A stretch of 64,000 nucleotides of DNA from Acidobacteriota bacterium (lineage in GTDB: Bacteria; Acidobacteriota; Terriglobia; Acidiferrales; UBA7541), in contig PMTV01000029.1 of the NCBI GenBank assembly GCA_003167215.1, positions 1 to 64,000 of the forward strand. Reading direction: 5' to 3'. Shown here piece by piece: positions 30,634-51,146 of this stretch. The notes under the pieces were generated by a model that was not told the DNA's origin, searched no databases, and saw only the letters and a list, made by a program, of their open reading frames with translations. Every line of letters begins with the position of its first letter. The stretch's first letter is position 1. The translations under genes were made by a program, and so were the position numbers.

Positions 30634-31548
30634 ATGGCCCACATGCGTGAATGGCTCGAATATGCCGCGACGTGGGTTGGAGTGAAGTCACTCGGGGTGT
30701 TGCCGCGGCCCGCGGCGCGATTCGCCGGCGCGAGTTTTGCGGCCGCGGCTTATGCCGTGCGCGCGCCGCTCCGTCGCGCGGCCATGTTTAATTTGGGTCT
30801 GGCGTTTCCCGACTGGAGCGAGACCAAGCGCAAGCGCGTAATTCGCCGAATGATTCAGCAAATCGGCTGGATGGCCGCGGAATTTTCACAATTTCCAAGA
30901 TACACGCGCGACAACATCGAGAAAATTGTGGTGCTCGATGGCTTCGAAAATTTCGATGCGGCGCGGCGGCGCGGAAAGGGCGTGCTCTTTCTCACCGGGC
31001 ACATGAGCGCGTGGGAACTGGCGCCGTTTGCGCAAGCTCTGTACGGCCACCCGCTTCATTTCCTCGTCCGCCCCATCGCGAACCGCCGGGTGGACGCACT
31101 CATTAACCACTACCGCTGTCTCTCCGGCAACCGGCCCATCGAAAAAAATAAGTCGGCTCGCTCCATTCTGAGGATTCTGGCGGACGGCGGCACGGTTGGT
31201 ATCCTCTCCGATCACAACACCGTGCTGGAGGAGAGCGTGTTCGTTGATTTCTTCGGCATTCCGGCTTCCACCACTTCCGGCCTCGCGCGTATCGCTTTGC
31301 GCACGGACGCGGCGGTAGTCCCGGGATTCCTCTCCTGGGACAGTGCGCGCCGAAAATATCGTCTGCGCTTTGAACCTGCAATAGAGCTTGCGCGAACGGG
31401 AGATGAAGAAGGGGATGTTCGCGAGAACACCGCGCGTTTCACCCAAACTATTGAAGATTATGTGCGCGCATATCCTGATCAGTGGCTCTGGGTCCACAAG
31501 AGATGGAAGACTCGCCCGCCGGGCGAAAAGGAAATTTATCCGGCCTAA
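30634..31548 (+). CDS. LpxL/HtrB-like lysophospholipid (lipid A) acyltransferase
   Basis: 304 aa. The acyltransferase motif HX4E is seen in LTGHMSAWELAPF, and later LADGGTVGILSDHNT with VFVDFFGIPASTTSGLARIA, which are LpxL-family blocks; the end WLWVHKRWKTRP is highly typical. It should add a secondary acyl chain to a lipid A precursor at the inner membrane. Followed after 45 bp by lpxD. Confidence 0.9.
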   Translation: MAHMREWLEYAATWVGVKSLGVLPRPAARFAGASFAAAAYAVRAPLRRAAMFNLGLAFPDWSETKRKRVIRRMIQQIGWMAAEFSQFPRYTRDNIEKIVVLDGFENFDAARRRGKGVLFLTGHMSAWELAPFAQALYGHPLHFLVRPIANRRVDALINHYRCLSGNRPIEKNKSARSILRILADGGTVGILSDHNTVLEESVFVDFFGIPASTTSGLARIALRTDAAVVPGFLSWDSARRKYRLRFEPAIELARTGDEEGDVRENTARFTQTIEDYVRAYPDQWLWVHKRWKTRPPGEKEIYPA

Positions 31549-31593
31549 ACCGTTTTCCATTGGTGTCTTTGATCCTTGCCAAAAGAGGTGACC

Positions 31594-32607
31594 ATGAGTT
31601 GCACGGCTGGTGAACTCGCAAAATTCCTGGGGACGACTATCGTGGGAGACGGACAGCTAGCGCTTTCTGGCGTGGCCATGCCGGAAAACGCGCGGGCGGA
31701 AGATTTAATTTACGTGGATTCTCCGCGACATCAGAAGCGCGCCGAGGATTCTGCGGCCAGGTGCGTGCTGGCGCCGGCGGGATTGCAGTTGAAAGGGAAG
31801 ACCACGTTGTTTGCGGAGAACCCGAAGTTCGCTTTCGCCAAGGCTTCCGCACGCCTGCTGCCGGAGTTTGCGCCTCCTCCGGGAATCCACCCCACCGCGA
31901 TTGTGGCTTCGAGCGCGCGCCTTGGGCTGAATGTTTTCGTCGGCCCATACGTAGTGATCGAAGATGAAGTTGAAATCGGCGCAGGCAGCATCGTAGAAGC
32001 TTTTTGTTTTCTCGGACGCGGCAGCGCAATCGGCGAAAAATGCCGGCTTCATCCGCGCGTCACGCTTTACGCGAAAGCGCGACTAGGTGAGGATGTCGAA
32101 ATTCATTCCGGCGTTGTGATCGGAAGCGACGGATTCGGATACGTTTTCGGGGAAGGCCGCCATTGGAAGTTTCCTCAGATCGGTACCGTCGAAATTGGCG
32201 ACAATGTTGAGATCGGCTGCAACACGACAATCGATCGCGGCTCGCTCGGTGCCACGCGCATTGCGGCGGACGTGAAGATCGATAACCTGGTTCAGGTGGG
32301 TCACAATGTATCCGTTGGCGAGCACTCGATCCTGGTATCGCAGGCTGGGATTTCGGGAAGCAGCTCTCTAGGAGTAGGCGTAATTCTCGGAGGGCAGGTG
32401 GGTCTTGGGGATCACTGCAATCTTGAGGATGGAGTAATCGTCGGCGGTCAGGGCGGGGTGCTCTCGGGCAAGACGATTCGGCGAGGCCAAACCGTGTGGG
32501 GAACTCCCGCGCGTCCGCTCGAACAATTCAAGAAACAATATGCCGTGTTGGCGCGCTTACCCAAGTTGATCGAGCGCGTAGAAAACCTCGAAAAGAGAAA
32601 GCCCTAG
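31594..32607 (+). CDS. lpxD: UDP-3-O-acylglucosamine N-acyltransferase
   Basis: 337 aa, normal length. The N-terminal uridine-binding domain precedes a left-handed beta-helix of hexapeptide repeats (VFVGPYVVIEDEVEIGAGSI onward). The catalytic His is in LVQVGHNVSVGEHSI. It adds the second acyl chain in lipid A synthesis. The ATG at 31594 has AGAGGTG upstream; a TTG 18 bp earlier is also open. Its presence shows an outer membrane with lipid A. Confidence 0.95.
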   Translation: MSCTAGELAKFLGTTIVGDGQLALSGVAMPENARAEDLIYVDSPRHQKRAEDSAARCVLAPAGLQLKGKTTLFAENPKFAFAKASARLLPEFAPPPGIHPTAIVASSARLGLNVFVGPYVVIEDEVEIGAGSIVEAFCFLGRGSAIGEKCRLHPRVTLYAKARLGEDVEIHSGVVIGSDGFGYVFGEGRHWKFPQIGTVEIGDNVEIGCNTTIDRGSLGATRIAADVKIDNLVQVGHNVSVGEHSILVSQAGISGSSSLGVGVILGGQVGLGDHCNLEDGVIVGGQGGVLSGKTIRRGQTVWGTPARPLEQFKKQYAVLARLPKLIERVENLEKRKP

Positions 32608-33190: not shown

Positions 33191-35236
33191 ATGACTGAAG
33201 GATTGATGACACCAGAAGCCAGACTGCGAACGGACTTCTCCTTTGGGGGCGGCCAAGCTACGGCTGCCGTCCGCAGCCGCGATTTTGAATGCCAAGTCGA
33301 GGACGCAGTATCCCGCAGCGCAAACTGGCTCCTCTCTGCGCAGTCCCAGGACGGGTATTGGTGGGGCGAGCTGGAAGCGGACACAACGCTCGAGTCCGAT
33401 TACATTGTTTACCTCCACGTACTCGGGCAATTGAAATCCGAAAAGGTAGCGAAGCTCGCAAATTATATTCGCAAAAAACAGCTTGCCGATGGCGGATGGA
33501 GTATTTTTGAAGGCGGTCCCTCCGAGCTGAATGCTTCGGTAAAGGCATATGTCGCCCTGCGTTTGGCGGGTGACGCAGCTACGGCGCCGCACATCGTTGG
33601 CGCGAAAGAGAAAATTATCGAGCTTGGCGGGCTTGAGGCCACGAATTCCTACGTTCGATTCTATCTCGCCATGGTTGGCGCCATCGATTGGAATATCGTT
33701 CCGTCGATTCCGCCCGAGCTGATGCTTCTGCCGGAATGGGTTCCTATCAATATCTACGAAATGTCTTCGTGGACTCGCGGGATCGTCATTCCTCTTTCGA
33801 TAATCTACGGGAATAAGCCTGACTGGCATTTGCCGGAAGGCGTCACCGTCAACGAACTCTTCAAGACCAAGGGTGAAAAGCCGCATTCCTTCGATTGGGA
33901 CAAGCGCATTATTTCCTGGCGCAACGTCTTTCTTGCCCTCGACCGCGCCGTGAAGGTTTACGAGCGTTCGCGATGGAAACCGTTCCGCAAATTCGCGCTC
34001 TCGCTCGCGCGCAAATGGATGCTCGAGCGCCTGGAGCGCACCGAAGGCCTGGCCACCATTTATCCCGCGATGATGAATTCGATTTATGCGCTGCTGGCCG
34101 AAGGCAAAGACCAGGACGACCCTCTGGTTACGCGCGAGATTAAATTCCTTGCGCGTTACGAAATCGAAGAGGACGACACCATTCGCGTGCAGCCTTGCAT
34201 TTCGCCCGTGTGGGACACGGCTATCGCCATGGTATCGCTAGAAGAAGCCGGCGTCGATCCGGCGCATCCAGCTCTCATCGCTGCGGAGCGCTGGGTTGTA
34301 TCCAACCAGATCCTCGGACCAGGCGATTGGCAGGTTAAGAATCAAAACGCGGAGCCCGGCGGATGGGCGTTTGAATTCCGCAACGATTTTTATCCCGATG
34401 TGGACGACACCGCTTTCGTTCTAATGGCGCTCGGCCGCGTCGATGATCCCGATTCAGATCGCTTGCGCAATTCGATGCGCCGCGGGCTGGCCTGGCTTGT
34501 TAGCATGCAGAACGCCGACGGCGGCTGGGGCGCGTTCGATCACGAAAACGATTTGCAATTTCTAAATCACATCCCTTTCGCCGACCACAACGCGATGCTC
34601 GATCCCTCCACCGCGGACGTAACCGCGCGCACCGTGGAGTGCCTCGGGCAGATGGGTTGGTCTGCGAATCACCCGGTCATTCAGCGCGCTCGCGCTTTCA
34701 TACGCCACGAGCAGACGCCTGACGGTTCTTGGTTCGGGCGCTGGGGCGTCAACTATGTTTACGGAACTAGTGGCGTGCTGCGCGCACTCGAGACCATCGG
34801 CCTTTCAAAACAGCCTGATTGTCAGCGCGCCGCGGATTGGTTGCGCTCTGTGCAGAATGCCGATGGCGGCTTCGGCGAGTCTGTCCTTTCCTACTACGAT
34901 CCTGCGCTGAAAGGCAAAGGGAAGAGCACTGCATCGCAAACGGCCTGGGGCTTGATCGGGTTGCTCGCAACCAGCGGTCCCGACGATCCTTCTGTCGAAC
35001 GCGCTGTGGCGTGGCTTCTGGAGCAGCAGAATCCTGATGGAACCTGGGACGAGGCGGAATTTACGGGCACAGGATTCCCTTGCGTCTTTTATCTTAAGTA
35101 TCACCTGTATCGAAACTCCTTCCCGCTTTACGCCTTGGCGCGTTACGACAACATGCGCAAGGGCCGGCGAAATTTTGGCGGTATGCAGATTTCCGCGGCG
35201 GAGTTGCAGCATCTAATCGGACGAAACCGGGGGTAA
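33191..35236 (+). CDS. shc: Squalene-hopene cyclase
   Basis: 681 aa, full length. The protonating DXDD motif is DVDD at about residues 403-406 (YPDVDDTAFVLMALGR). Multiple QW repeats are seen: QSQDGYWWGELEAD, QNADGGWGAFDHEND, QTPDGSWFGRWGV, QNADGGFGESVLSY and QQNPDGTWDEAEFTG. It cyclises squalene to hopene at the membrane. It heads the operon, ending 3 bp before hpnH. The start could also be the ATG at 33206. Confidence 0.96.
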   Translation: MTEGLMTPEARLRTDFSFGGGQATAAVRSRDFECQVEDAVSRSANWLLSAQSQDGYWWGELEADTTLESDYIVYLHVLGQLKSEKVAKLANYIRKKQLADGGWSIFEGGPSELNASVKAYVALRLAGDAATAPHIVGAKEKIIELGGLEATNSYVRFYLAMVGAIDWNIVPSIPPELMLLPEWVPINIYEMSSWTRGIVIPLSIIYGNKPDWHLPEGVTVNELFKTKGEKPHSFDWDKRIISWRNVFLALDRAVKVYERSRWKPFRKFALSLARKWMLERLERTEGLATIYPAMMNSIYALLAEGKDQDDPLVTREIKFLARYEIEEDDTIRVQPCISPVWDTAIAMVSLEEAGVDPAHPALIAAERWVVSNQILGPGDWQVKNQNAEPGGWAFEFRNDFYPDVDDTAFVLMALGRVDDPDSDRLRNSMRRGLAWLVSMQNADGGWGAFDHENDLQFLNHIPFADHNAMLDPSTADVTARTVECLGQMGWSANHPVIQRARAFIRHEQTPDGSWFGRWGVNYVYGTSGVLRALETIGLSKQPDCQRAADWLRSVQNADGGFGESVLSYYDPALKGKGKSTASQTAWGLIGLLATSGPDDPSVERAVAWLLEQQNPDGTWDEAEFTGTGFPCVFYLKYHLYRNSFPLYALARYDNMRKGRRNFGGMQISAAELQHLIGRNRG

Positions 35237-35239
35237 GGG

Positions 35240-36418
35240 ATGAGAGTACCTTTAAGTTTGACCACCAGCATGGCCGGGTATCTGACCGGCAAGAAGATTA
35301 GCGGCGCTGAGAAATTTCCGCTGGTGATGATGCTCGAACCGCTGCACGCCTGTAATCTTACCTGCACCGGCTGCGGCCGCATTCGCGAATATAAATCCAC
35401 GATCAATGAGATGTTGACGGTGGAGGAATGCCTGAAGGCCGTGGATGATTGCGGCGCGCCCATCGTTTCGCTCTGCGGCGGCGAGCCCATGATTTATCCC
35501 GAGCTCGATCGCTTGTGCAAAGAAATTCTCGATCGCAAAAAACACATTTACCTGTGCACCAACGGAATGTTCATTCGCAAGCGATTGAAAGAATTCAAGC
35601 CGACCTCGCGGCTCTTTTTCAACGTGCATTTGGACGGACTTGAGAAGACGCACGACATCTGCGTCGAACGCGATGGCGTGTTCCGCGAAGCGATCGAAGG
35701 CATCAAGGCGGCTAAGGCTGCAGGTTTCCTGGTCACTTCCAACACCACCGTCTATAAGGAAACCGATATCGAAGAGATTGCGGATCTTTTTGCTTATCTG
35801 CAGACGCTGGGCGTCGACGGCCACATGATTTCTCCGGCGTATTCCTACGCCGCGGTGATGACCAAGGAAATCTTCATGTCGCGCGATGAAATTCGCGACA
35901 AATTCCGGCAGGCCAGCAAACTGCTCGAACGCTACAACATCGTGACCTCGCCGATTTACATGGAATACCTTCGCGGCGAGCGTGAGCTCATGTGCACCGC
36001 CTGGGGCAATCCGACTTACAACCCGCGCGGATGGAAGGGCCCCTGCTATCTGATGACCGACGCGCATCACGCCACGTTCAAGGAATTCATCGATAACACT
36101 CCATGGGAAAAGTATGGCCACGGTCGCGATCCTCGTTGCGAAGATTGCATGGTTCACGCCGGTTACGAAGCCTCCGCTGTTCTCGGCGGAAATAAGAAAC
36201 TGGGCGACACCTGGAAAATGCTCACTTGGACGCTTTCGGGAAAAATGGGCGGACTGATCGGCGAACCGAGCGAGAGAGAACTTCAGGCCAAGCGGAACGG
36301 TCATGCCAACGGCAACGGACATTCCAACGGCCACGAAAATGGTAATGGGTCCGCGAAGCGCGCGATTCCCGTGGCGCCATCAAACCAGTCCCAGGATGAG
36401 GTTTTCCGCATTCTATGA
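35240..36418 (+). CDS. hpnH: Adenosyl-hopene transferase HpnH (radical SAM)
   Basis: 392 aa. The radical SAM cluster motif is C38-X3-C42-X2-C45 (ACNLTCTGCGRIREYKS), followed by SLCGGEPMIYPEL. It adds a 5'-deoxyadenosyl group to hopene, giving adenosylhopane. The C-terminal 50 residues are a Gly/Asn/His-rich tail (NGHANGNGHSNGHENGNG) of low complexity, longer than I expect for the family. Stop overlaps the hpnA start (ATGA). Confidence 0.95.
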   Translation: MRVPLSLTTSMAGYLTGKKISGAEKFPLVMMLEPLHACNLTCTGCGRIREYKSTINEMLTVEECLKAVDDCGAPIVSLCGGEPMIYPELDRLCKEILDRKKHIYLCTNGMFIRKRLKEFKPTSRLFFNVHLDGLEKTHDICVERDGVFREAIEGIKAAKAAGFLVTSNTTVYKETDIEEIADLFAYLQTLGVDGHMISPAYSYAAVMTKEIFMSRDEIRDKFRQASKLLERYNIVTSPIYMEYLRGERELMCTAWGNPTYNPRGWKGPCYLMTDAHHATFKEFIDNTPWEKYGHGRDPRCEDCMVHAGYEASAVLGGNKKLGDTWKMLTWTLSGKMGGLIGEPSERELQAKRNGHANGNGHSNGHENGNGSAKRAIPVAPSNQSQDEVFRIL

Positions 36419-37443
36419 CCACGCTCGTTACCGGTGCCGCTGGCTTCGTGGGAAGCCATGTCACCCGGCAACTTGTCAGCGCAGGCCAATCGGTTCGCGT
36501 CCTGGTTCGTCCAGGTAGCAACTTAGAGGCGCTCGCCGGGCTACACGTGGAGTGCTTCGAAGGCGATCTGCGGGATGCCAACTCGCTGGAACGCGCTATG
36601 CACGGCGTGCGGCGGGTTTTTCATTTGGCGGCAGACTACCGGTTGTGGGCGCCTCGGCCCGAAGAGATTTACGAGAATAATGTTGAAGGAACCCGCCAGC
36701 TGCTTGCTGCAGCGAAGCGCGCGGGCGTCGAGCGGATCGTCTATACCAGCACCGTCGCAACGATCGCAGTCCCGCGGCACGGCGCACTTCCGAATGAAGA
36801 CACGCAAGCAACGTTCGACGAAATGATTGGGCACTACAAACGCTCGAAATTCTTGGCGGAACAGGTTGCGGTCGAAGCCGCCGCTGACGGAGTGCCGGTC
36901 GTCATCGTAAATCCAACAGCTCCTGTGGGGCCGTGGGACTGGAAGCCGACACCGACGGGTCGCATCATCCTCGATTTCTTGAAAGGCAAGATGCCTGCCT
37001 ATGTTGACACTGGGCTGAATGTTGCCGCGGTAGAAGACATTGCAACCGGGCATTTGCTGGCGGCCGAAAAAGGCCGCATTGGCGAGCGCTATATTTTGGG
37101 CGCACGGAACATGACTTTGAAGCAGATTCTCGATGCGCTCTCTGCCATTACGGGGCGTCCGGCGCCGCGTGTTCGGTTGCCTCATGCCGTTGCGCTCGCC
37201 GCGGGATATGCCGATCAGTTGTTCTCGCGTCTGGCGGGCCGCGAACCCCAAATTCCCGTTGAAGGTGTGAAAATGTCGCGCCATCGCATGTTCGTCGAAA
37301 GTGACAAGGGCGCGCGCGAACTCGGCTACCAGCATACCTCGGTGGAAGCCGCGCTCGAACGCGCCGTGCGTTGGTATGAACTGCACGGATATCTGGCCAC
37401 GGGCGCAGGAAATAAATCCGTCGCGCATGAAGCCGCGGCGTAA
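36415..37443 (+). CDS. hpnA: Hopanoid-associated sugar epimerase HpnA
   Basis: 342 aa extended SDR. Rossmann motif VTGAAGFVGSHVTRQL at the start, and YKRSK as the catalytic YxxxK. The block IVNPTAPVGPWDWKPTPTGRII is characteristic of HpnA. It presumably modifies the side chain sugar or its donor; the exact reaction is not settled. Translationally coupled to hpnH and followed 8 bp later by hpnG. Confidence 0.93.
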   Translation: MTTLVTGAAGFVGSHVTRQLVSAGQSVRVLVRPGSNLEALAGLHVECFEGDLRDANSLERAMHGVRRVFHLAADYRLWAPRPEEIYENNVEGTRQLLAAAKRAGVERIVYTSTVATIAVPRHGALPNEDTQATFDEMIGHYKRSKFLAEQVAVEAAADGVPVVIVNPTAPVGPWDWKPTPTGRIILDFLKGKMPAYVDTGLNVAAVEDIATGHLLAAEKGRIGERYILGARNMTLKQILDALSAITGRPAPRVRLPHAVALAAGYADQLFSRLAGREPQIPVEGVKMSRHRMFVESDKGARELGYQHTSVEAALERAVRWYELHGYLATGAGNKSVAHEAAA

Positions 37444-37451
37444 GGATCGCA

Positions 37452-38234
37452 GTGAGAATTCTGGTCACCTTCGCATTGGAAAATGAATTCGCTCCCTGGC
37501 GCGCCCTGCGCGATTTCAGATCGGCGAAGTTGGGCGATTCTGAAATTCACCTCGCGGAATTCAGTTCCGCACAAACGGCGGTAGTCCTCACCAGTGTGGG
37601 TGCCCGGCGGGCTGCGTTGGCCACCTCGGAAATAATGCGTGGCGAATACGACGCTTTTGATTGTTGTATCTCCTGCGGTCTGGCCGGTGGGTTGCGTAGC
37701 GAGTATCATGTAGGGGAAGTGTTGGCTGCTCGGAGCGTTTTTTCGGAAGCTCCCCGGACGGACGGAAGCAGCCGGCAGCTACAATCCAGTGCGGCGCTTG
37801 TTTCGTTCGCTGCGGAATGCGGCGCGGCCGTCGTGGACCGGTTTTATAGCGCGGATCACGTCGTTTCGAGCGCGGACGAAAAACAGCGCTTGGGCGAATC
37901 TGCTGATGCGGTGGAAATGGAAAGTTTTGAGATTCTGCGTGAAGCGCAAGCCGCCGGCGTCCCCGCTGTTGCCGTTCGCGCAATCAGTGACACGGTGGGT
38001 GAAGATTTGCCTCTCGATATGAATCAGGTATTCACGGACCAGGGACAAGTGAGCATTCCGCGCGTGCTGGGCCAGGTCGCGCTCAAGCCGCAATCCTTGC
38101 CGGGGTTGATCCGGCTTGGTAGGAACAGCCGCATCGCGTCGCAATCGCTTGCGTGTTTTCTGGATTCTTACGTTATCGCGTTGGCAGGTCGCGTAGCGCA
38201 ACTTGAAACGAAATCAAGCGTTGTGGCAGTCTAA
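37452..38234 (+). CDS. hpnG: Hopanoid phosphorylase HpnG (nucleoside phosphorylase-like)
   Basis: 260 aa, GTG start. Nucleoside phosphorylase fold: ILVTFALENEFAPWRALRDF at the start, CCISCGLAGGL, and ADAVEMESFEILREAQAAGVPAVAVRAISDTV carrying the EMES and RAISD motifs. It releases adenine from adenosylhopane, giving (phospho)ribosylhopane. Next in the operon are two dehydrogenases, candidates for the following reduction. Confidence 0.92.
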   Translation: MRILVTFALENEFAPWRALRDFRSAKLGDSEIHLAEFSSAQTAVVLTSVGARRAALATSEIMRGEYDAFDCCISCGLAGGLRSEYHVGEVLAARSVFSEAPRTDGSSRQLQSSAALVSFAAECGAAVVDRFYSADHVVSSADEKQRLGESADAVEMESFEILREAQAAGVPAVAVRAISDTVGEDLPLDMNQVFTDQGQVSIPRVLGQVALKPQSLPGLIRLGRNSRIASQSLACFLDSYVIALAGRVAQLETKSSVVAV

Positions 38235-38241
38235 AAGCACC

Positions 38242-39363
38242 ATGGGTCAAACCATTAGTCCAATTGAATCGACCGGGTCTTCTCGCCAGAGGGATTCGCA
38301 CCTGGCCGTCGGCCATATGCGCGCCGGCGTCTACCGTGGCCAAGGCCGCGTGACGGTGGAATCGGTGCCGATCCCGGAAATTGGCGAAGGCGAAATTCTC
38401 TTCCGAGTGGCTGCCTGTGGCATCTGCGGTACCGACATCAAAAAGATTCACCATGGTTTTATCGCGCCTCCACAAATTCTAGGGCACGAGCTTGCCGGTA
38501 CCGTCGTGAAGGCCGGCCGCGGCGTCACTAAGTTTAAACCGGGCGACCGCGTAGTCAGCTTCCACCATATTCCGTGCGGCGATTGCTTTTACTGCGAGCG
38601 AAAACTTTTTTCGCAGTGCGCCGGATACAAGAAAGTCGGCCTCACGGCCGGGTTCGACCCCAATGGCGGAGGGTTTGCGGAATACGTTCGCGCCATGCCG
38701 TGGATTGTTGAACGCGGAATGATCGCGCTGCCTGCGGACGTCAGTTTTGAAGAAGCCACCTTTGCGGAGCCTGTGAACACCTGTTTGAAAGCTGTGCGCA
38801 AAGCTCGCGTTTCGAAAAATGAGACGGTGCTGGTAATAGGTCAAGGTCCCATCGGAATGCTGCTCATGCTGCTCGCCAAGTACGAAGGCGGCGAAGTCTT
38901 CACCAGCGATCCTATGCCGGGACGCCGGGCCGCAAGCCTGCGATTTGGCGCCGAAGGATCCTTCGATCCCGCCAGCAAGAATCTACTGGAAGAAATTCGC
39001 AGCCGTACGGACGGGCGCGGCGCCGATGTGGTTATGGTGGCTGTGCCTAGTCCATCATTAGTCCCTGAAGCTTTAACCCTGGCGCGCCCCGGAGGGCGCA
39101 TACTGTTGTTTGCGCACAACGACCCGGTGATGCAGCTCGGGTTTCCGGCTGCGGCAGTGGGTGTGGAAGAAAAAGAAATTCTCGGAAGTTATAGCGCTTC
39201 GGTGGACGATCAGGACGAATCGGCGGCCCTTGTTTTCGAACGCAAGCTACCGGTACGGGAATTGATTTCGCATCGCTTTCCGCTGGACCAAATCGGGGAA
39301 GCGTTGGAATTGGCCGCTCGGCCCGCAGACGATACTTTGAAAGTGGTGATACGTCACGAATGA
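38242..39363 (+). CDS. Zinc-dependent MDR dehydrogenase 1 (hopanoid operon)
   Basis: 373 aa medium-chain dehydrogenase of the sorbitol/threonine dehydrogenase type. Catalytic zinc ligands are in ACGICGTDIKKI and GHELAGTVVKAGRG; structural zinc cysteines are CGDCFYCERKLFSQC (C-X2-C-X2-C-X7-C). The cofactor loop is VLVIGQGPIGMLLM. I chose the ATG at 38242, 7 bp after hpnG; ATGs at 38203 and 38317 are also possible. Its stop overlaps the next dehydrogenase (ATGA). Substrate is unknown; the context points to hopanoid side-chain chemistry. Confidence 0.88.
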   Translation: MGQTISPIESTGSSRQRDSHLAVGHMRAGVYRGQGRVTVESVPIPEIGEGEILFRVAACGICGTDIKKIHHGFIAPPQILGHELAGTVVKAGRGVTKFKPGDRVVSFHHIPCGDCFYCERKLFSQCAGYKKVGLTAGFDPNGGGFAEYVRAMPWIVERGMIALPADVSFEEATFAEPVNTCLKAVRKARVSKNETVLVIGQGPIGMLLMLLAKYEGGEVFTSDPMPGRRAASLRFGAEGSFDPASKNLLEEIRSRTDGRGADVVMVAVPSPSLVPEALTLARPGGRILLFAHNDPVMQLGFPAAAVGVEEKEILGSYSASVDDQDESAALVFERKLPVRELISHRFPLDQIGEALELAARPADDTLKVVIRHE

Positions 39364-40424
39364 GAGTAGAACGCGAACGCAATGGACACATGACGGCGGC
39401 CGTGTTGTACGGTGCTGAAGATTTGAAAATCGAGAGCGTCGACATTCCCGCCCTGTCCGACGACGAAGTACTCGTGCGCGTGGAAGTGGCGCTGACCTGC
39501 GGCACAGATTTCAAAGTCTGGAAGCAGGGATTTCATCAGCGCATGATCAAGCCCCCTGCGCTGTTCGGTCACGAGCTGGCGGGCGTGGTTGAATTGAAGG
39601 GAAGCGCGGTGAATGGCGGCATTCGGGAAGGCATGCGGGTGGTGCCTGCGAATTCCGCGCCCTGCAACGTTTGCCTCTACTGCCGCAAGGGACAGCCGAA
39701 TCTTTGCGAGGACCTGCTGTTCAATAATGGCGCCTACGCGGAATACATTCGCATCCCGGGGAGAATCGTGCGGCAGAACTTGCTGCAGATTCCGGATAAT
39801 GTTTCGTTCGTCGATGCCGCCATGGCCGAACCGCTTGCGTGTGTGCTGCGCGGCATCCATGAAATGGGGGTCAATCCCGGCGATACCGCGGTCGTGATCG
39901 GATGCGGACCAATCGGCTTGAAATTTATACGAATTCTTTCCGGCCGCCACGTGCGCGTGATCGCTATCGGAAAGCGCAAAAGCCAGATGCGTGCGGCCGA
40001 ACGGCTCGGAGCAATCGCAACATTTGACGCTGCGGAAATTGAGAATCCGGTGGCCCTGGTGCGCCAGATCACGGAGGAAGGCCGCGGAGCCGATGCCGTG
40101 ATCGAAGCGGTAGGCACCGCCGCCACCTGGCAATGGGCGCTCCAAATGGTGCGCAAGGGCGGAACTGTAAATCTTTTCGGCGGCTGCCCGCGCGGCACGG
40201 AAGTGAAAATCGATCCCGCCGCCCTGCATTATTCTGAAATCACGATCAAGTCCACTTTCCATCACACGCCCAGGTTTATGCGCGAAGCGCTCGACACCAT
40301 CGCGCGCGGCGAGATTCGCGCGAGCGATTTTATCAATGGCGAGGCGTCCCTGTCGGAATTGCCTCAAGTCTTTGAACACATGAAGAACCGGCATGGCGAG
40401 ATGAAAACGGCCGTCATTCCCTGA
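39360..40424 (+). CDS. Zinc-dependent MDR dehydrogenase 2 (hopanoid operon)
   Basis: 354 aa, a distant paralogue of the preceding gene. Catalytic zinc region: LTCGTDFKVW and FGHELAGVVELKGSA; structural zinc: CNVCLYCRKGQPNLC. The nucleotide loop is AVVIGCGPIGLKFIRIL. Start overlaps the previous stop by 4 bp, so the two are translationally coupled and may act together. A second ATG at 39390 would drop ten residues. Confidence 0.88.
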   Translation: MRVERERNGHMTAAVLYGAEDLKIESVDIPALSDDEVLVRVEVALTCGTDFKVWKQGFHQRMIKPPALFGHELAGVVELKGSAVNGGIREGMRVVPANSAPCNVCLYCRKGQPNLCEDLLFNNGAYAEYIRIPGRIVRQNLLQIPDNVSFVDAAMAEPLACVLRGIHEMGVNPGDTAVVIGCGPIGLKFIRILSGRHVRVIAIGKRKSQMRAAERLGAIATFDAAEIENPVALVRQITEEGRGADAVIEAVGTAATWQWALQMVRKGGTVNLFGGCPRGTEVKIDPAALHYSEITIKSTFHHTPRFMREALDTIARGEIRASDFINGEASLSELPQVFEHMKNRHGEMKTAVIP

Positions 40425-40499: not shown

Positions 40500-42431
40500 A
40501 TGTTAGCCACACCTGAGTTGAAAATCGTGCGCAACCTTCCCGCGGAGGGCTGCGACCCCGCTGCCGCACAGCGCTACACGCGCTGGCTGGCGAACCATCA
40601 CTACGAAAATTTCAATGTTGTCTCCCGTCTGCTACCTCGCCGCCTACATCAGGATTTCTACAATGTTTACGCTTATTGCCGGTGGTCAGATGACTTGGGC
40701 GATGAAGTGGCGACTCCCGTGCGCGCGCTGGCGTTGCTCGATGCCTGGGAGGACGAGCTGCGGCTGATTTACGAGCCGGGCCGCGGACCTTCTCATCCGG
40801 TTCTGATCGCCCTGCGCGAAACTGTCCGTGCGAAAAATATTCCGATGCAGCCGTTCAGCGATTTGCTGCGCGCCTTCCGCCAGGATCAGAAAGCCCATCG
40901 CTATCCGGATTGGGATTCCGTTTTGGACTATTGCGTGTACTCGGCGAATCCGGTTGGCAGGCTCGTTCTTTATCTCTGCGGTTATCGCGACGAAGCGCGG
41001 CAAAAACTTTCCGATTACACTTGCACCGCCTTGCAGCTGGCGAATTTCTGGCAAGACGTTTCGCTGGACCTGGGGAAAGGACGCCTCTATATCCCTCTCG
41101 ATGCGCTGGCCGAACACGGTCTAACCGAAGCCGATATCGCGGCGCGGAAGTTCGACGCGCGTTATGTCGCGCTGATGAAATCCCTGATCGCGCGCACACG
41201 CGCTCTATTTCGCGAGGGGCTTCCGCTGGCCCAGACCGTTGAACCATTCCTGCGCGTGGACCTCGAAATGTTCAGCCGCGGTGGTCTCGCGATTCTCGAC
41301 GCCATCGAAGCCTCGGGATACAACACGCTCGCGCACCGCCCTGCATTGACGAAATGGACGCAAATGCGATTGCTGGCAGGCGCTTTTGCCTCCCGCGTCT
41401 TTTCACGCCGCGTGAATCTGCGGGCCGATGCGCCGGAAGCAAGGTCTGTGGAAGTTGATTCAATTGATCCACCGACTGACAGGCCGTTGGCCATAATGCG
41501 TTCCCGCAACGAGATCGCCTCTTCGTACGCCGAATGCGCGCGCATCGCCAGAGAATCCCGCAGCAGCTTCTATCTCGCTTTCTTCGGCCTGCGCAAGGAA
41601 AAGCGCAATGCGCTCTGCGCCCTCTATGCTTTCATGCGCCTGGTGGATAACGTTTCCGACGAGCCAGGCGACTTGGATTCAAAGCGTAACGGACTGGCTC
41701 GCTGGCGAGCGATGCTGGATGACGCGATTGCTGGCCGCGCCACCGCCAGCCCGATTCTTCCCGCGCTCGCCGACACCATTACGCGATTTGAAATTCCGTC
41801 GCGCTATTTTCACGATTTGATTCTCGGCGCGGAAATGGATTTGACCGTCTCGTCCTACGCCACATTCGACCGGCTGTCGGAATACTGTTATCGTGTAGCA
41901 GGCACTGTAGGCCTCACCTGCCTGCATGTTTTCGGTTTTCGCGATCCGAAAGCTCCGGATTTGGCGGAGCGCTTGGGCCTCGCATTTCAGTTGACCAACA
42001 TCATTCGCGATGTCCGCAGCGATTTCGACATAGGCCGCGTATATCTTCCGGCGGAAGACCTCGAATGCTTTGGAGTTTCCGAATCACAGCTTTCCGGGCC
42101 GCTTACTCCGCAAATTCGAGACCTGCTCGAATTCGAAGCGGATCGTGCCTGGGAATTCTATCAACAGGGCGCGGCTCTGGTGCGCCGTGTCGATGGTGAC
42201 AGTCACGCAACCCTTTGGGCTTTGATCCGCACCTACAGCAGCCTTTTGGAACGAATCGAAGAACGTGACTTCGATGTTTTTTCTAGCCGCATTTCGTTGT
42301 CGAGTGCGGAAAAAATTCAATATCTCCTCACGGCGGGGATGAGCGGTTGGTGGAAGAAGGATGCCCTCGCAAAGCGTTCTAGTGATCGGCGGCGGTCTGG
42401 CAGGACTGTCCTCCGCCGTCGCGCTGGCTGA
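40500..42431 (+). CDS. hpnCD: Fused HpnC-HpnD squalene biosynthesis protein
   Basis: 643 aa, double the usual length. Residues 1-300 resemble HpnC (WLANHHYENFNVVSRLLP, first acidic motif SDDLGDE at 63-69, second QDVSLDLGKGR). From about residue 335 it resembles HpnD (ARESRSSFYLAFFGLRKEKR, LVDNVSDEPG near 383, NIIRDVRSDFDIGRVYLP near 504). HpnD makes presqualene diphosphate from two farnesyl diphosphates, HpnC converts it to hydroxysqualene. In most bacteria these are separate adjacent genes. The last 24 codons overlap hpnE and look non-conserved. Confidence 0.92.
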   Translation: MLATPELKIVRNLPAEGCDPAAAQRYTRWLANHHYENFNVVSRLLPRRLHQDFYNVYAYCRWSDDLGDEVATPVRALALLDAWEDELRLIYEPGRGPSHPVLIALRETVRAKNIPMQPFSDLLRAFRQDQKAHRYPDWDSVLDYCVYSANPVGRLVLYLCGYRDEARQKLSDYTCTALQLANFWQDVSLDLGKGRLYIPLDALAEHGLTEADIAARKFDARYVALMKSLIARTRALFREGLPLAQTVEPFLRVDLEMFSRGGLAILDAIEASGYNTLAHRPALTKWTQMRLLAGAFASRVFSRRVNLRADAPEARSVEVDSIDPPTDRPLAIMRSRNEIASSYAECARIARESRSSFYLAFFGLRKEKRNALCALYAFMRLVDNVSDEPGDLDSKRNGLARWRAMLDDAIAGRATASPILPALADTITRFEIPSRYFHDLILGAEMDLTVSSYATFDRLSEYCYRVAGTVGLTCLHVFGFRDPKAPDLAERLGLAFQLTNIIRDVRSDFDIGRVYLPAEDLECFGVSESQLSGPLTPQIRDLLEFEADRAWEFYQQGAALVRRVDGDSHATLWALIRTYSSLLERIEERDFDVFSSRISLSSAEKIQYLLTAGMSGWWKKDALAKRSSDRRRSGRTVLRRRAG

Positions 42432-43839
42432 AGCGGGCCTTCAAGTCCGCCTGCTCGAAAAGCGTCCCCACCTGGGCGGGCGCGCCACTTCCTACACGCT
42501 GCCAGACGGCAGCGAAGTGGACAACTGCCAGCATGTCACGCTCGGATGCTGCACCAATTTAGCCGATTTTTATTTGCGCGTAGGCGCCGCCGGCAAGATT
42601 CGGTTTTATGACCGGCTCCATTTTGTTGACGCGCAGGGCCGCCGCTCGACGATGGAAGCGTCGCCGCTGCCTCCGCCGCTGCATATGGCGCCATCGTTCC
42701 TGCTTTTCAGCCCGTTGAACTTGGCGGACAAGCGAGCGATCGCCGGCGCGATGATGGAAATCGCGCTGAACGGCGGAAATCCGCCGGGCATTGGCGGCAT
42801 TTCGATGCTCGACTGGCTGCTGCGGATGAAGCAGACGCCGGCCGCCATCGAGCGTTTCTGGCGCGTAGTCTTGGTCAGCGCTCTCGATGAGGAACTTTCG
42901 AGAACGGATGCGCGTTACGGGATTGAAGTTTTCTGGAAGGCGTTTCTGGCGAATAAAGGCGGATATCGTGTTGGGATTCCTTCCGTGCCCTTGGTTGACC
43001 TATACGCAGGCTGCCGCGAAGCGGTTTTGCAACGTGGCGGCGAAGTTCGGCTGCGTTGCGGCATTCGTGAAATTCGAGTTCGGGAGAATCGTTTTGTGAG
43101 CGTCGTGATGGATGACGGTATCGAAACAACGGCGGACGCCTGCATCTTAGCCGTCCCGCACGACGTCCTGCTGAATCTGTTGCCGAAAGAAATGAGCGAA
43201 GGAAATGGGCCGCTGTCTGGGTTGCGCAATATCAAGACCTCGCCGATCACCGGCGTTCATCTGTGGTACGACCGCACCGTGATGACCGAGCCGTTTCTTA
43301 CGCTGCTCGACCACACCACCCAATGGGTGTTTAACAAAACCTTGTTATATAAGACGTCTGAAACCGCCCGCACGAACTCGCGCCCAACTGGGCAGAGCGG
43401 CCTTTCTTCGGAAGCGGAAGCGGACGGCCAGTATCTTCAACTCGTAATCAGCGCGTCGTACGATCTTGTGCCGAAATCACGACAGGAGATTATCGATCTC
43501 TGCCGGCGCGAGCTCGCTGATGTCTTGCCGGCAACCCGCGACGCGCAGTTGCGAAAAGCTACCGTGATCAAGGAAATCAACGCGACGTTTTCGCCCGAGC
43601 CCGGAGTGGACCGCTGGCGCCCTCCGCAGAAGATGGCAGTGGACAATCTTTTTCTGGCCGGCGATTGGACTCGCACTTCATGGCCCGCCACTATGGAAGG
43701 CGCAGTGCGAAGCGGCTATCTGGCCGCAGAAGCGTTGCTGGCGGAATTCGGCGAACCGAAATCTTTTTTGCAACCAGACCTGCCGTTCGAAGGCTTGTCC
43801 AAACTGTGGGCCCACAGCAATAACGAGGCAGGTTTATGA
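42361..43839 (+). CDS. hpnE: Hydroxysqualene dehydroxylase HpnE
   Basis: 492 aa FAD-dependent amine-oxidase-like protein. The dinucleotide motif SVLVIGGGLAGLSSAVAL opens the protein, then RPHLGGRATSYTLPDGSEVD; the C-terminal FAD motif is LFLAGDWTRTSWPATMEGAVRSG. It reduces hydroxysqualene to squalene, completing the HpnCDE route that feeds Shc. Start overlaps the 3' end of hpnCD by 71 bp, an unusually long overlap. Last gene of the hopanoid operon. Confidence 0.94.
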   Translation: MPSQSVLVIGGGLAGLSSAVALAEAGLQVRLLEKRPHLGGRATSYTLPDGSEVDNCQHVTLGCCTNLADFYLRVGAAGKIRFYDRLHFVDAQGRRSTMEASPLPPPLHMAPSFLLFSPLNLADKRAIAGAMMEIALNGGNPPGIGGISMLDWLLRMKQTPAAIERFWRVVLVSALDEELSRTDARYGIEVFWKAFLANKGGYRVGIPSVPLVDLYAGCREAVLQRGGEVRLRCGIREIRVRENRFVSVVMDDGIETTADACILAVPHDVLLNLLPKEMSEGNGPLSGLRNIKTSPITGVHLWYDRTVMTEPFLTLLDHTTQWVFNKTLLYKTSETARTNSRPTGQSGLSSEAEADGQYLQLVISASYDLVPKSRQEIIDLCRRELADVLPATRDAQLRKATVIKEINATFSPEPGVDRWRPPQKMAVDNLFLAGDWTRTSWPATMEGAVRSGYLAAEALLAEFGEPKSFLQPDLPFEGLSKLWAHSNNEAGL

Positions 43840-47318: not shown

Positions 47319-48398
47319 TCAGGTCAACGCTTTATCGACTGCGGCGCCCCAGATATCGCCAACGGTGAAACCCTCAGGGAAGGGATCCTCGGGATCGACC
47401 ACGTATTGAGCGAAGCCTGTGATCCACGCCGTTCCGCTGAGTGTAGGTACGACTGCGCGATATTGGCCAACCTGCGTTTCGCGTACAAGGCAACCTGTGA
47501 AGACTGTCCCGAGTATACCCTCGTGCGGGAATGCTTCGTTTAGGCCGAGTTTGCCCCTAGCGTAAAGTGCGGCCATGCGGGCGCAAGTGCCAGTTCCACA
47601 AGGTGACCGATCAATGGCGCCAGTCCACGTGGCAGGCCTGCTCCAGTCGAGCTCGCCAGTCGAGCAAACCACTGTGTTTTTGGCAACAGCATCAGGGTTT
47701 GTGGGCGGGCCCGTAAGCTCGGCGATAGTGATACCACGAATCCCGGGATTCTCAGGGTGCACGACTGGCAGTTGCTCGCGGGCCGCGGCTTTGACCATTT
47801 CGGCGACCCGAACAATATCTCGCCCTTCGTCTGGCGTAAGTCGCAGGCCGAGAGGCTCGGCCTCTGCGATAACGTAGAACATCCCGCCATACGCGACATC
47901 GACGGTCACGGTTCCGAGATGCGGTACTTCTACTTTCGCGTCCAAATGCGTGGCAAACGCCGGAACGTTCTCGAATGTGACTTGCTTCACCCTACCGTTT
48001 TGTACCTCCGCTCTGACTACCACCAGGCCAGCCGGCGTGTCTAGCACAATTGTGGTAGTGGGCTCGACTGCAGTCACCATACCCGTTTCGATCAGTGTAG
48101 TGACCACACAAATTGTGTTGGTGCCCGACATAGGCGGATATTCCACCTGTTCCATAATGACGAAACCTGCATGCGCCTTAGGATTGGTCGGTGGCAGCAA
48201 TAAGTTGCAGTTTGCCGCGGGATACCCCCTCGGCTCGCGAAGCATAAGCTTTCGAAGACCGTCGGCATGATTCTCCAGGTAAGTCTTCTTCTCAAACATC
48301 GTGCGACCGGGCACGTCGAGGACACCGCCAATGATTACGCGGCCATGCTCACCCGCAGCGTGCAGATCCACAGCGCAGATCATTCTTGATACCCGCAT
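47319..48398 (-). CDS. Proline racemase family protein, probable hydroxyproline epimerase (Ser/Cys type)
   Basis: 359 aa. Family motifs: MICAVDLHAAGEHGRVIIGG at the start and DRSPCGTGTCARMA with catalytic C267. The first catalytic position is S91 in PPMSGTNTIC, where most racemases have Cys. Ser/Cys members are reported as 4- or 3-hydroxyproline epimerases; Cys/Thr would mean trans-3-hydroxyproline dehydratase. The likely reaction is trans-4-hydroxy-L-proline to cis-4-hydroxy-D-proline. It follows the permease gene and is probably co-transcribed from the divergent promoter near 50.1 kb. Confidence 0.87.
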   Translation of the reverse strand: MRVSRMICAVDLHAAGEHGRVIIGGVLDVPGRTMFEKKTYLENHADGLRKLMLREPRGYPAANCNLLLPPTNPKAHAGFVIMEQVEYPPMSGTNTICVVTTLIETGMVTAVEPTTTIVLDTPAGLVVVRAEVQNGRVKQVTFENVPAFATHLDAKVEVPHLGTVTVDVAYGGMFYVIAEAEPLGLRLTPDEGRDIVRVAEMVKAAAREQLPVVHPENPGIRGITIAELTGPPTNPDAVAKNTVVCSTGELDWSRPATWTGAIDRSPCGTGTCARMAALYARGKLGLNEAFPHEGILGTVFTGCLVRETQVGQYRAVVPTLSGTAWITGFAQYVVDPEDPFPEGFTVGDIWGAAVDKALT

Positions 48399-48515
48399 CG
48401 ATCCTCTCTTTGCTAGGACTGTCTATCGGCGCCAGACATTACGGCTGATATATCCATTTCATTGCCGCTGAGTGCTCTAATCGTCGCGGACGCGCCGGGG
48501 AGTCGCCAGTCTTAT

Positions 48516-50051
48516 TCAAGTCGAAACTGGGCCTGCTCTCGCACGCTGGTTGGCTGACCGCAACAGCAAATAAACCGGAACTCCCAACAATATTATTACG
48601 AGCCCCGGCCATGAGCTCGTCGGCCGATACGCGAGCAATGCCACCAGTATTGTGCTGGTGGACAGAATATGCAACGCAGGCACTACGGGATACCCGGCAG
48701 CGCGGTACGGACGCTCAGCGTTAGGTCGAATGAACCGCAATCGGAACAGACCAAGTACGGTCAGAATGTAGAACAATAACACGGCGGAAATCACGTAATC
48801 GAGAAGGTTGCTATAGACGTTCCCGTACTTGCCGGTTATCGGATCATAAGTCCGCGGCAACACCAGAAACATAGCCCAGACGCCCTGCACCAGAAGTGAT
48901 CGCGCCGGAACGTGAGCCTTGTTGAGACGCGCAGTGGCTGGAAAGAAGAGGTGCTCACAGGCCATGGCGTAATAAACGCGCGCCCCTGTCATGACTAATG
49001 CGTTGACAGCGCCAAATGTCGAAACCATGATTGCCACGGCCATTGCGCTGGTGCCGATGCCGGGAAAGATGACTCGCAACGTTGCAGTTGCCACCCGATC
49101 GACTGGCGCATGTTGGATAGCAGATAGAGGTAAGGTTACGAGATATGCGAGATTGGCAAGAAGGTACAGCAGGATCACCAAAACGGTGCCTATGACCATT
49201 GCGAGTGTTACGTTGCGGCGTGCGTTTTTCACTTCTGCGGCGGCAAATGCTATGTTGTGCCACGCCTCAGATGCAAAAAGCGAACCACTCTGCGACAAGC
49301 AGAGCGCAATAATGAGGCCAAAAGCGGTGCCGGCAGTCAAGCCCGGAGCAATTGGTTCAAACCCGTGTCGCGACCAAGGGTTGACGAAGTTCGCGCGAAG
49401 CGCCACAGCGTTACTTCCCAACCCAATTCCAACAATGATAAGTGCGAAGAGCGTCCCGATCTTTGCAATTGAGGAGACGTTCTGGACCACACGACCATAG
49501 CTCAGACCGCATGTGTTTGCTGACGTAAGCAGTGCGATTAAGAGGATCGCCACCAGCTGGACCGTAGACAGGGAAAGTGCGTAGTGAGTACTCAGGTGCA
49601 CTGGCCCTATTAGATATTTATCGTCCGAAACAAGCGGCCAAAGCACTCCGAGAAAGCGCCCGAAAGCAACTGCAACCGCTGCAATTGTGCCGGTCTGGAT
49701 CACTGTGAACAACGTCCAACCGTAGAGAAAACCCCACATGGAAGATAATGACTCACGCAGATAGATGTACATGCCACCCGCGCGCGGCATCATGCCAGCC
49801 AGTTCACCGTAACAAACTGCCCCTGCGATAGTAATCAGACCTGCGATTACCCAGGCCACCAGCAGCCAGGCAGCGCTACCGATCAACCTCGACATATCCG
49901 CGGAAACAATAAAAATGCCTGACCCAATCATTACTCCAACCACAATCATCGTGGCGTCGAACAGACCCAATTCTTGTCTGAATTGACGATCACTTGCAGC
50001 CGTCTCAGGAGCCAATGTACCTTTTCCGGTCATCTCGAAAACGCGCTCCAT
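48516..50051 (-). CDS. APC-family amino acid permease
   Basis: 511 aa with about 12 membrane helices. The APC signature opens TM1 (DATMIVVGVMIGSGIFIVSA), followed by GELAGMMPRAGGMYIYLRE in TM2-3. Context next to the epimerase and lyase suggests uptake of proline or hydroxyproline. GGAG directly precedes the ATG at 50051; an ATG at 50033 is an alternative start. Divergent from the DHDPS-family gene, with 159 bp between them holding an operator. Confidence 0.9.
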   Translation of the reverse strand: MERVFEMTGKGTLAPETAASDRQFRQELGLFDATMIVVGVMIGSGIFIVSADMSRLIGSAAWLLVAWVIAGLITIAGAVCYGELAGMMPRAGGMYIYLRESLSSMWGFLYGWTLFTVIQTGTIAAVAVAFGRFLGVLWPLVSDDKYLIGPVHLSTHYALSLSTVQLVAILLIALLTSANTCGLSYGRVVQNVSSIAKIGTLFALIIVGIGLGSNAVALRANFVNPWSRHGFEPIAPGLTAGTAFGLIIALCLSQSGSLFASEAWHNIAFAAAEVKNARRNVTLAMVIGTVLVILLYLLANLAYLVTLPLSAIQHAPVDRVATATLRVIFPGIGTSAMAVAIMVSTFGAVNALVMTGARVYYAMACEHLFFPATARLNKAHVPARSLLVQGVWAMFLVLPRTYDPITGKYGNVYSNLLDYVISAVLLFYILTVLGLFRLRFIRPNAERPYRAAGYPVVPALHILSTSTILVALLAYRPTSSWPGLVIILLGVPVYLLLRSANQRARAGPVST

Positions 50052-50125
50052 CTCCAGTCTTGCTGGTCAACTGACGTAAGTTCAATGAAAATAACGTCAA
50101 AACTGCAGCGCATCTTATCACGCTT

Positions 50126-50138
50126 ACATACTGTATGT
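50126..50138. promoter_or_regulatory. Putative GntR operator in the divergent promoter
   Basis: Perfect 5-3-5 palindrome ACATA-CTG-TATGT. A -10-like TATACT follows at 50141-50146 on the plus strand, so the site would lie in the promoter spacer of the lyase gene. No good -35 match was found. Compare 51958-51970. Confidence 0.6.
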
Positions 50139-50210
50139 GGTATACTATATCCTAGTGCTGTTCCGGGGATCCGTACAATCAGAAAGATCGAAACCAACAG
50201 GAGGCTACTA

Positions 50211-51146
50211 ATGGACTGGAAGGGTGTCATGCCTGCAATTACGACCTTTTTCGATGAAAGCTATCGTGTCGATCACAAAAGCATTGAGCGCCATTGCCGA
50301 TGGCTACTTAGTGAGGGTTGTTTAGGAATCATTGCACTTGGCACTCTGGGAGAAGGTGCGACGCTTACATTTGATGAGAAACTCGAAGTCCTTCGTACTT
50401 GTGTGCATTCAGCGGAAGGTCGAGCGCCCGTAGTGGCTGGCATTTCCTCCGTCACCACATCGGGGGCAGTAGAGCTGGCCCGAGCAGCTGCCGACCTAGG
50501 ATGCCAAGGCCTCATGATTTTGCCCCCTTACGTTTATCAAGGAGACTGGCGCGAGATGAAAACTCACGTCAGCGCCGTGCTCGATGCAGTTCGAATTTCT
50601 TGCATGCTGTACAACAATCCGGTCTCATACGGAACGGATTTTCTTCCTGCGTACGTTCAAGAACTCGTCGGCGAGCACCAGAATTTGCAGGCCGTAAAGG
50701 AGTCCAGCATGGATGTCCGGCGCGTCACCGCAATTCGTGCGCTGGTCGGGGATCGACTCGAAGTCTCCATAGGCGTAGATGACTTAGTTGTTGAGGCGGT
50801 CGGTGTTGGAGCTTCAGGTTGGGTTTCTGGCCTAGCTAATGTGCTACCGCGGGAATCGGTGAATCTTTTTACTCTGGCGCTCAATGGCGAGCGTGAGAAA
50901 GCCTTCGATTTATATCGCTGGTTTCTCCCGCTATTGCGTATGGACACTGTGCCAAAGTTCGTCCAACTAATAAAGCTGGCGCAATCGGAAGCTGGAGTAG
51001 CTAGTTCGCGAGTACGTCCTCCGCTTCTCGAGCTCGCAGGTACAGAATTGCAAGAAGCGCGAAACACTATTAATCAGGTTCTCCGCAATCGGTCCGGTGT
51101 TCGTGATGAGCCTACGATGAACGCGACTAAAGGGATGGGCACTTAG
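50211..51146 (+). CDS. DHDPS-family lyase, probable pyrroline-4-hydroxy-2-carboxylate deaminase
   Basis: 311 aa DapA-superfamily TIM barrel. The Schiff-base Lys is K163 (LQAVKESSMD) and the Tyr is Y134 (CMLYNNPVSYG); GTLGEGATLTFDEK is the usual GxxGE loop. In hydroxyproline catabolism this family deaminates delta1-pyrroline-4-hydroxy-2-carboxylate to 2-ketoglutarate semialdehyde (HypD-type). The blocks PPYVYQGDWREMKTHVSAV and FLPLLRMDTVPKFVQLIKL match proteins I know beside proline racemases. Strong RBS CAGGAGG before the ATG at 50211. Confidence 0.88.
   Translation: MDWKGVMPAITTFFDESYRVDHKSIERHCRWLLSEGCLGIIALGTLGEGATLTFDEKLEVLRTCVHSAEGRAPVVAGISSVTTSGAVELARAAADLGCQGLMILPPYVYQGDWREMKTHVSAVLDAVRISCMLYNNPVSYGTDFLPAYVQELVGEHQNLQAVKESSMDVRRVTAIRALVGDRLEVSIGVDDLVVEAVGVGASGWVSGLANVLPRESVNLFTLALNGEREKAFDLYRWFLPLLRMDTVPKFVQLIKLAQSEAGVASSRVRPPLLELAGTELQEARNTINQVLRNRSGVRDEPTMNATKGMGT

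Follow-up and report, generated by a model that had tools for sequence, protein, structure and literature searches.

Which enzyme reduces ribosylhopane to bacteriohopanetetrol (BHT), the parent of the main bacterial biomarker lipids, was stated to be not established as recently as November 2025 (PMC12583986), and no later assignment was found among the papers searched. The initial annotation of the locus described here, which lies in a 64,000-nucleotide stretch of DNA from a soil bacterium of the Terriglobia (the window), had likewise called this reduction not firmly assigned, in agreement with that paper. It had further proposed that two zinc dehydrogenases encoded directly after hpnG, here named MDR1 and MDR2, are strong candidates for this step, or act on isoprenoid alcohols. 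The locus thus raises the question of whether this pair is the missing hopanoid enzyme.

Part of the linkage between hpn and MDR genes is already published. A 2017 study of Acidobacteria by Sinninghe Damste et al. described the gene clusters hpnA-hpnG-ug1 and ug2-hpnC-hpnD-hpnE; ug2, whose product is about 350 aa long and in many cases annotated as a Zn-binding alcohol dehydrogenase, is absent from Chloracidobacterium thermophilum (PMC5462960). MDR2 fits ug2, and MDR1 is probably ug1 by its position; ug1 follows hpnA-hpnG, ug2 precedes hpnC, the lineages are the same, and fused hpnCD genes are reported in subdivision 2, but that study is silent on the ug1 product, on pairing, on complementary cofactor types and on occurrence without hopanoid genes (PMC5462960). 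The same authors suggested hpnA for the conversion of ribosylhopane to BHT, while citing evidence that Burkholderia can do without hpnA and that Rhodopseudomonas lacks it (PMC5462960).

Two coupled dehydrogenase genes within a hopanoid cluster

The cluster is organised on the plus strand in the order shc-hpnH-hpnA-hpnG-MDR1-MDR2-hpnCD-hpnE, with the MDR pair between hpnG and the fused hpnCD gene:

33191..35236, plus strand: shc, squalene-hopene cyclase (TIGR01507, 797 bits)
35240..36418, plus strand: hpnH, adenosylhopane synthase (TIGR03470, 437 bits)
36415..37443, plus strand: hpnA, SDR, hopanoid-associated sugar epimerase (TIGR03466, 484 bits)
37452..38234, plus strand: hpnG, divergent, nucleoside phosphorylase-like (TIGR03468, 118 bits, below the cut-off of 187.1; PF01048)
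38242..39363, plus strand: MDR1, zinc-dependent MDR, polyol-dehydrogenase-like, NAD-type (373 aa; possible alternative start 38317)
39360..40424, plus strand: MDR2, zinc-dependent MDR, polyol-dehydrogenase-like, NADP-type (354 aa; alternative start 39390)
39360..39363, plus strand: ATGA overlap of the MDR1 stop and MDR2 start (translational coupling), kept in several lineages
40500..42431, plus strand: hpnC-hpnD fusion (TIGR03464, 503 bits; TIGR03465, 423 bits)
42361..43839, plus strand: hpnE, hydroxysqualene dehydroxylase (TIGR03467, 434 bits)

SHC, HpnH, HpnA, the HpnC-HpnD fusion and HpnE all pass their curated cut-offs, and HpnG is clear but divergent, scoring below its own. HpnA also gives 246 bits against the model for the sterol demethylation protein SdmB, below the SdmB cut-off, and the hpnE frame overlaps the end of the single fused hpnC-hpnD gene by about 70 bases. 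Just upstream of the cluster and on the same strand (30634-32607) are a lipid A acyltransferase-like gene and lpxD. Further along the window (47319-51146), inspection by eye suggests a putative hydroxyproline-use cluster, with a proline racemase/hydroxyproline epimerase-like gene, an amino-acid permease and a DapA-like gene.

Both MDR genes are intact, and the description of them as a coupled pair directly after hpnG is confirmed, including their neighbours and the ATGA overlap of the MDR2 ATG with the MDR1 stop. An ATG overlapping the MDR1 stop recurs in genomes G095 and G187, in nine genomes of family f29, in Acidipila and in one genome of family f40, and recurrence in several lineages indicates that the MDR1-MDR2 coupling is conserved and not a product of chance. 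A second MDR2 ATG, at 39390, is also conserved. For MDR1, the Met at 38317 is near-invariant among orthologs and is a possible later start; Terriglobus roseus and one other ortholog lack a start codon at the matching position, so the N-terminal extension is real in some relatives.

Zinc and cofactor motifs of MDR1 and MDR2

Each protein contains complete ADH_N and ADH_zinc_N domains (Pfam), and the catalytic Cys, His and Glu together with the four structural-zinc Cys are near-invariant among 42 MDR1 and 40 MDR2 sequences. In one MDR2 ortholog elsewhere (locus L145, 3119-4150, gp2), the Cys of the catalytic zinc site is replaced by Asp (LTDGTD). AlphaFold models (pLDDT of 92 for MDR1 and 79 for MDR2) match MDR enzymes in Foldseek searches with TM values of 0.8-0.9, the top matches being TADH, a putative Zn dehydrogenase and a ketose reductase. 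The zinc polyol dehydrogenases of the MDR family, such as ketose reductase/sorbitol dehydrogenase (1e3j) and galactitol-1-phosphate dehydrogenase (4a2c), have the same fold, catalytic Cys-His-Glu and structural zinc lobe at about 25-31% identity; unlike these, MDR1 and MDR2 occur as an NAD/NADP pair and lie far under every curated equivalog cut-off, those of IolM, L-threonine dehydrogenase and galactitol-1-P dehydrogenase included. The best NCBIfam model for both is IolM, scyllo-inosose 3-dehydrogenase (NF041097), but the scores of 154 and 157 bits against a cut-off of 450 show that they are not members, and the best score against Tdh is 147 with a cut-off of 458.

In Rossmann folds, a discriminating residue after beta-2 tells NAD(H) from NADP(H) dependence. 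All 54 MDR1 sequences have an acidic residue at the end of beta-2, which is Asp in 53 of them. MDR2 has a non-acidic residue at this point, with Lys or Arg as the usual next residue, in 36 of 37 cluster-linked sequences, in 8 of 9 from family f40, in genome G132 and in 3 of 5 outgroup sequences; the non-acidic residue is Gly, Ala or Val in the same 36/37 cluster-linked and 8/9 f40 proportions. From these motifs MDR1 is predicted to be NAD(H)-dependent and MDR2 NADP(H)-dependent. An NAD-type enzyme beside an NADP-type enzyme would probably mean that the two run in opposite directions, and this complementarity suggests a redox couple more than it does two enzymes devoted to one reduction.

The closest plasmid relatives also point towards polyols. 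The Rhodococcus opacus plasmid zinc dehydrogenase WP_242323970.1 is 44% identical to MDR2 and has SAPC and HYSE...FHHTP motifs in common with it. Its operon, with a layout of the pentitol or tetritol type, also encodes an FGGY kinase, a DeoR regulator and a class II aldolase. This relative differs from MDR2 in having an acidic, NAD-type cofactor residue, a point against the cofactor preference predicted from the motifs, and no MDR1 partner is annotated alongside. The nearest plasmid relative of MDR1 (37%) is near a DeoR regulator and a transketolase. The NAD-type acidic residue of MDR1, the NADP-type basic motif of MDR2 and the presence of MDR2 kin in a polyol-catabolism operon are new here.

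Distribution of the pair among hopanoid producers

We surveyed 247 acidobacterial genomes, some of them MAGs, in which both orthologs are clearly set apart from other MDRs: MDR1 is found in 38 genomes at 353 bits or above, with the next best hit at 228, and MDR2 in 39 genomes at 339 bits or above, with the next best at 268. MDR2 is present in every one of the 38 MDR1 genomes. The two genes adjoin each other in 21 of these and are split in the remaining 17; wherever split genomes were examined, MDR2 lies before hpnC and MDR1 after hpnG. HpnH is encoded in 62 of the 247 genomes, 35 of which have the pair: 26 of the 27 in the window's class (Terriglobia), all seven in family f29, one in f51 and one in f40. 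The one Terriglobia genome with HpnH and SHC and no pair (G007) was considered as a co-loss with HpnG; HpnC and HpnD hits are also absent from it, and an assembly gap is an equally likely cause. The pair is built persistently into the hopanoid clusters of Terriglobia and of two related families, f29 and f51, and its retention inside such clusters across four deep lineages speaks for a function connected with hopanoids in these organisms.

These observations can be read as marking a lineage-specific ribosylhopane reductase, in which MDR2 would use NADPH to reduce the open-chain aldehyde to BHT in Terriglobia and relatives, with MDR1 assisting or running the reverse reaction. The pair directly follows hpnA-hpnG in conserved clusters, it accompanies HpnH in nearly the whole class, polyol dehydrogenase chemistry would suit reduction of a C-linked ribose to ribitol, and the enzyme is still unassigned. 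The linkage, however, was seen in only part of the Acidobacteriota: 26 of the HpnH genomes surveyed, all from other families of the phylum, do not have the pair, and they probably include the Chloracidobacterium lineage, a member of which makes BHT (PMC5462960). In an hpnH pattern scan of GTDB genomes, covering the neighbourhood of hpnH at 119 loci of 8 kb or less, MDR1 was found at 13 of 28 acidobacterial loci, and an MDR ortholog at none of the 91 loci from other phyla. One of the loci recovered, from a MAG labelled Planctomycetales (L143, 1-2588), carries shc-hpnH-hpnG with an HpnH 63% identical to that of the window, reflecting either transfer or mis-binning; neither hpnA nor the MDR pair lies beside these genes, and the lack of an adjoining pair in a cluster so close in sequence also counts against a reductase role.

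Several of the pair-less HpnH genomes have their hpn genes beside mevalonate-pathway genes, with no MDR there. At three such loci from other acidobacterial families (L101, L103 and L112), shc-hpnH-hpnA-hpnG is joined to genes for HMG-CoA reductase, GHMP kinases, diphosphomevalonate decarboxylase and an FMN-type isomerase-like protein. No alternative dehydrogenase was found beside hpnG in the other acidobacterial hpn clusters, only mevalonate-pathway genes, IPP isomerase-like FMN proteins and HpnA.

The pair in genomes without hopanoid genes

If the pair served only to reduce ribosylhopane, it should be confined to organisms that make adenosylhopane or ribosylhopane, and it is not. In family f40, 10 of 14 genomes have an MDR1 ortholog, in each case with MDR2 adjacent, whereas HpnH is found in one of the 14. 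The f40 MDR1 orthologs, at 49-55% identity, are as close as those of Terriglobia. Genome G221, rated 100% complete, lacks SHC, HpnA, HpnG and HpnH and keeps HpnC and HpnD. In eight of the ten f40 genomes (L118, L120, L265 and L267-L271), mostly without HpnH, the pair follows a proline-dehydrogenase-domain gene in a conserved operon. Outside this family, G132 has an MDR2 ortholog and no hpn gene was found in it; the neighbours of low-identity pairs in G063, G078 and G132 (ABC solute-binding protein, beta-propeller, AcrB, 3HCDH) point to no common substrate.

In trees, the f40 sequences group in a single clade next to the cluster-linked ones, the pattern that vertical descent would give; this clade is sister to them for MDR2 (SH-aLRT 92), and for MDR1 its placement is unresolved. 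Each protein has 85 columns that are conserved with the same residue in cluster-linked and f40 sequences, and conserved-but-switched columns number four in MDR1 and one in MDR2. A change of substrate from a small molecule to a hopanoid might be expected to leave more switched columns than this, although, similar as their conserved residues are, the f40 enzymes could still act on another substrate.

Absence from most hopanoid producers and presence without hopanoids together weaken the assignment as ribosylhopane reductase, which we now consider unlikely, and the earlier view of the pair as strong candidates for this reduction loses much of its force. The pair is probably not simply the long-sought missing hopanoid enzyme.

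A role in isoprenoid metabolism fares no better. Genes carried along in an isoprenoid operon could act on prenols or balance redox for squalene synthesis, and MDR2 does adjoin hpnC or hpnD in nearly all clusters, split or unsplit, while the f29 clusters include ispH. A link to squalene synthesis instead of hopanoids was rejected as there is no correlation with HpnC in f40: G256-G258 carry the pair but lack both HpnC and HpnH, and G247, G254 and G255 have HpnC and no MDR1. The best relatives, moreover, are polyol and not prenol dehydrogenases. Action on isoprenoid alcohols has thus gained no support, and we regard it as very improbable.

The pair might instead tailor the hopanoid side chain, BHT itself being made by another enzyme such as HpnA. 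MDR1 would oxidise a secondary hydroxyl of BHT (for example at C-34) with NAD+, and MDR2 would re-reduce it with NADPH to give a stereoisomer or other derivative. Complementary cofactor types, obligate co-occurrence and a location with hpnA and hpnG are all in keeping with this, as is the presence of HpnA in the tested pair-less HpnH genomes except G007. With f40 carrying the pair in the absence of hopanoid genes, and a search for signs that these bacteria make BHT of unusual stereochemistry finding none, such tailoring seems distinctly unlikely.

A candidate polyol redox couple

The reading that we favour, with about even confidence, is that MDR1 and MDR2 are a polyol redox couple, one partner using NAD and the other NADP, that arose outside hopanoid metabolism and was recruited into the hopanoid cluster. 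It draws on the complementarity of the motifs, the polyol-type structural matches and the polyol operon of the MDR2 kin. The two zinc polyol-dehydrogenase-like enzymes would form a module in which both most likely act in succession on one shared carbinol, sugar-like or polyol: MDR1 would oxidise it with NAD+ and MDR2 then reduce it with NADPH, for a net inversion, isomerisation or transhydrogenation. The module would be older than its hopanoid linkage, with the orthologous pair working in relatives that lack hopanoid side-chain genes, and in Terriglobia and related families the hopanoid cluster would later have taken it in and retained it. The genes are intact, their zinc and cofactor motifs conserved and their co-occurrence obligate, and they are found both in conserved clusters and in genomes without HpnH; cofactor preference, the direction of each step and a polyol substrate, which need not be a hopanoid, are what we infer from them.

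Ribosylhopane is itself a C-linked ribose, so recruitment of a polyol couple to it is chemically reasonable. It is conceivable, though less likely than not, that the Terriglobia pair, derived from an ancestral NAD/NADP polyol couple, acts on the ribose or ribitol side chain of hopanoids, either as this lineage's missing ribosylhopane reductase or as a stereo-inverting couple.

The hopanoid-free relatives provide a control for any hopanoid role of the pair. If the f40 enzymes carry out the same chemistry as the hopanoid-linked ones, then the missing enzyme lies outside the pair, and HpnA or an unlinked reductase would again become the candidates to consider. The strict pairing of an NAD-type with an NADP-type enzyme yields a specific prediction, open to testing, about the working of the module, and the conserved pair offers a concrete, lineage-limited candidate for the BHT-forming step.
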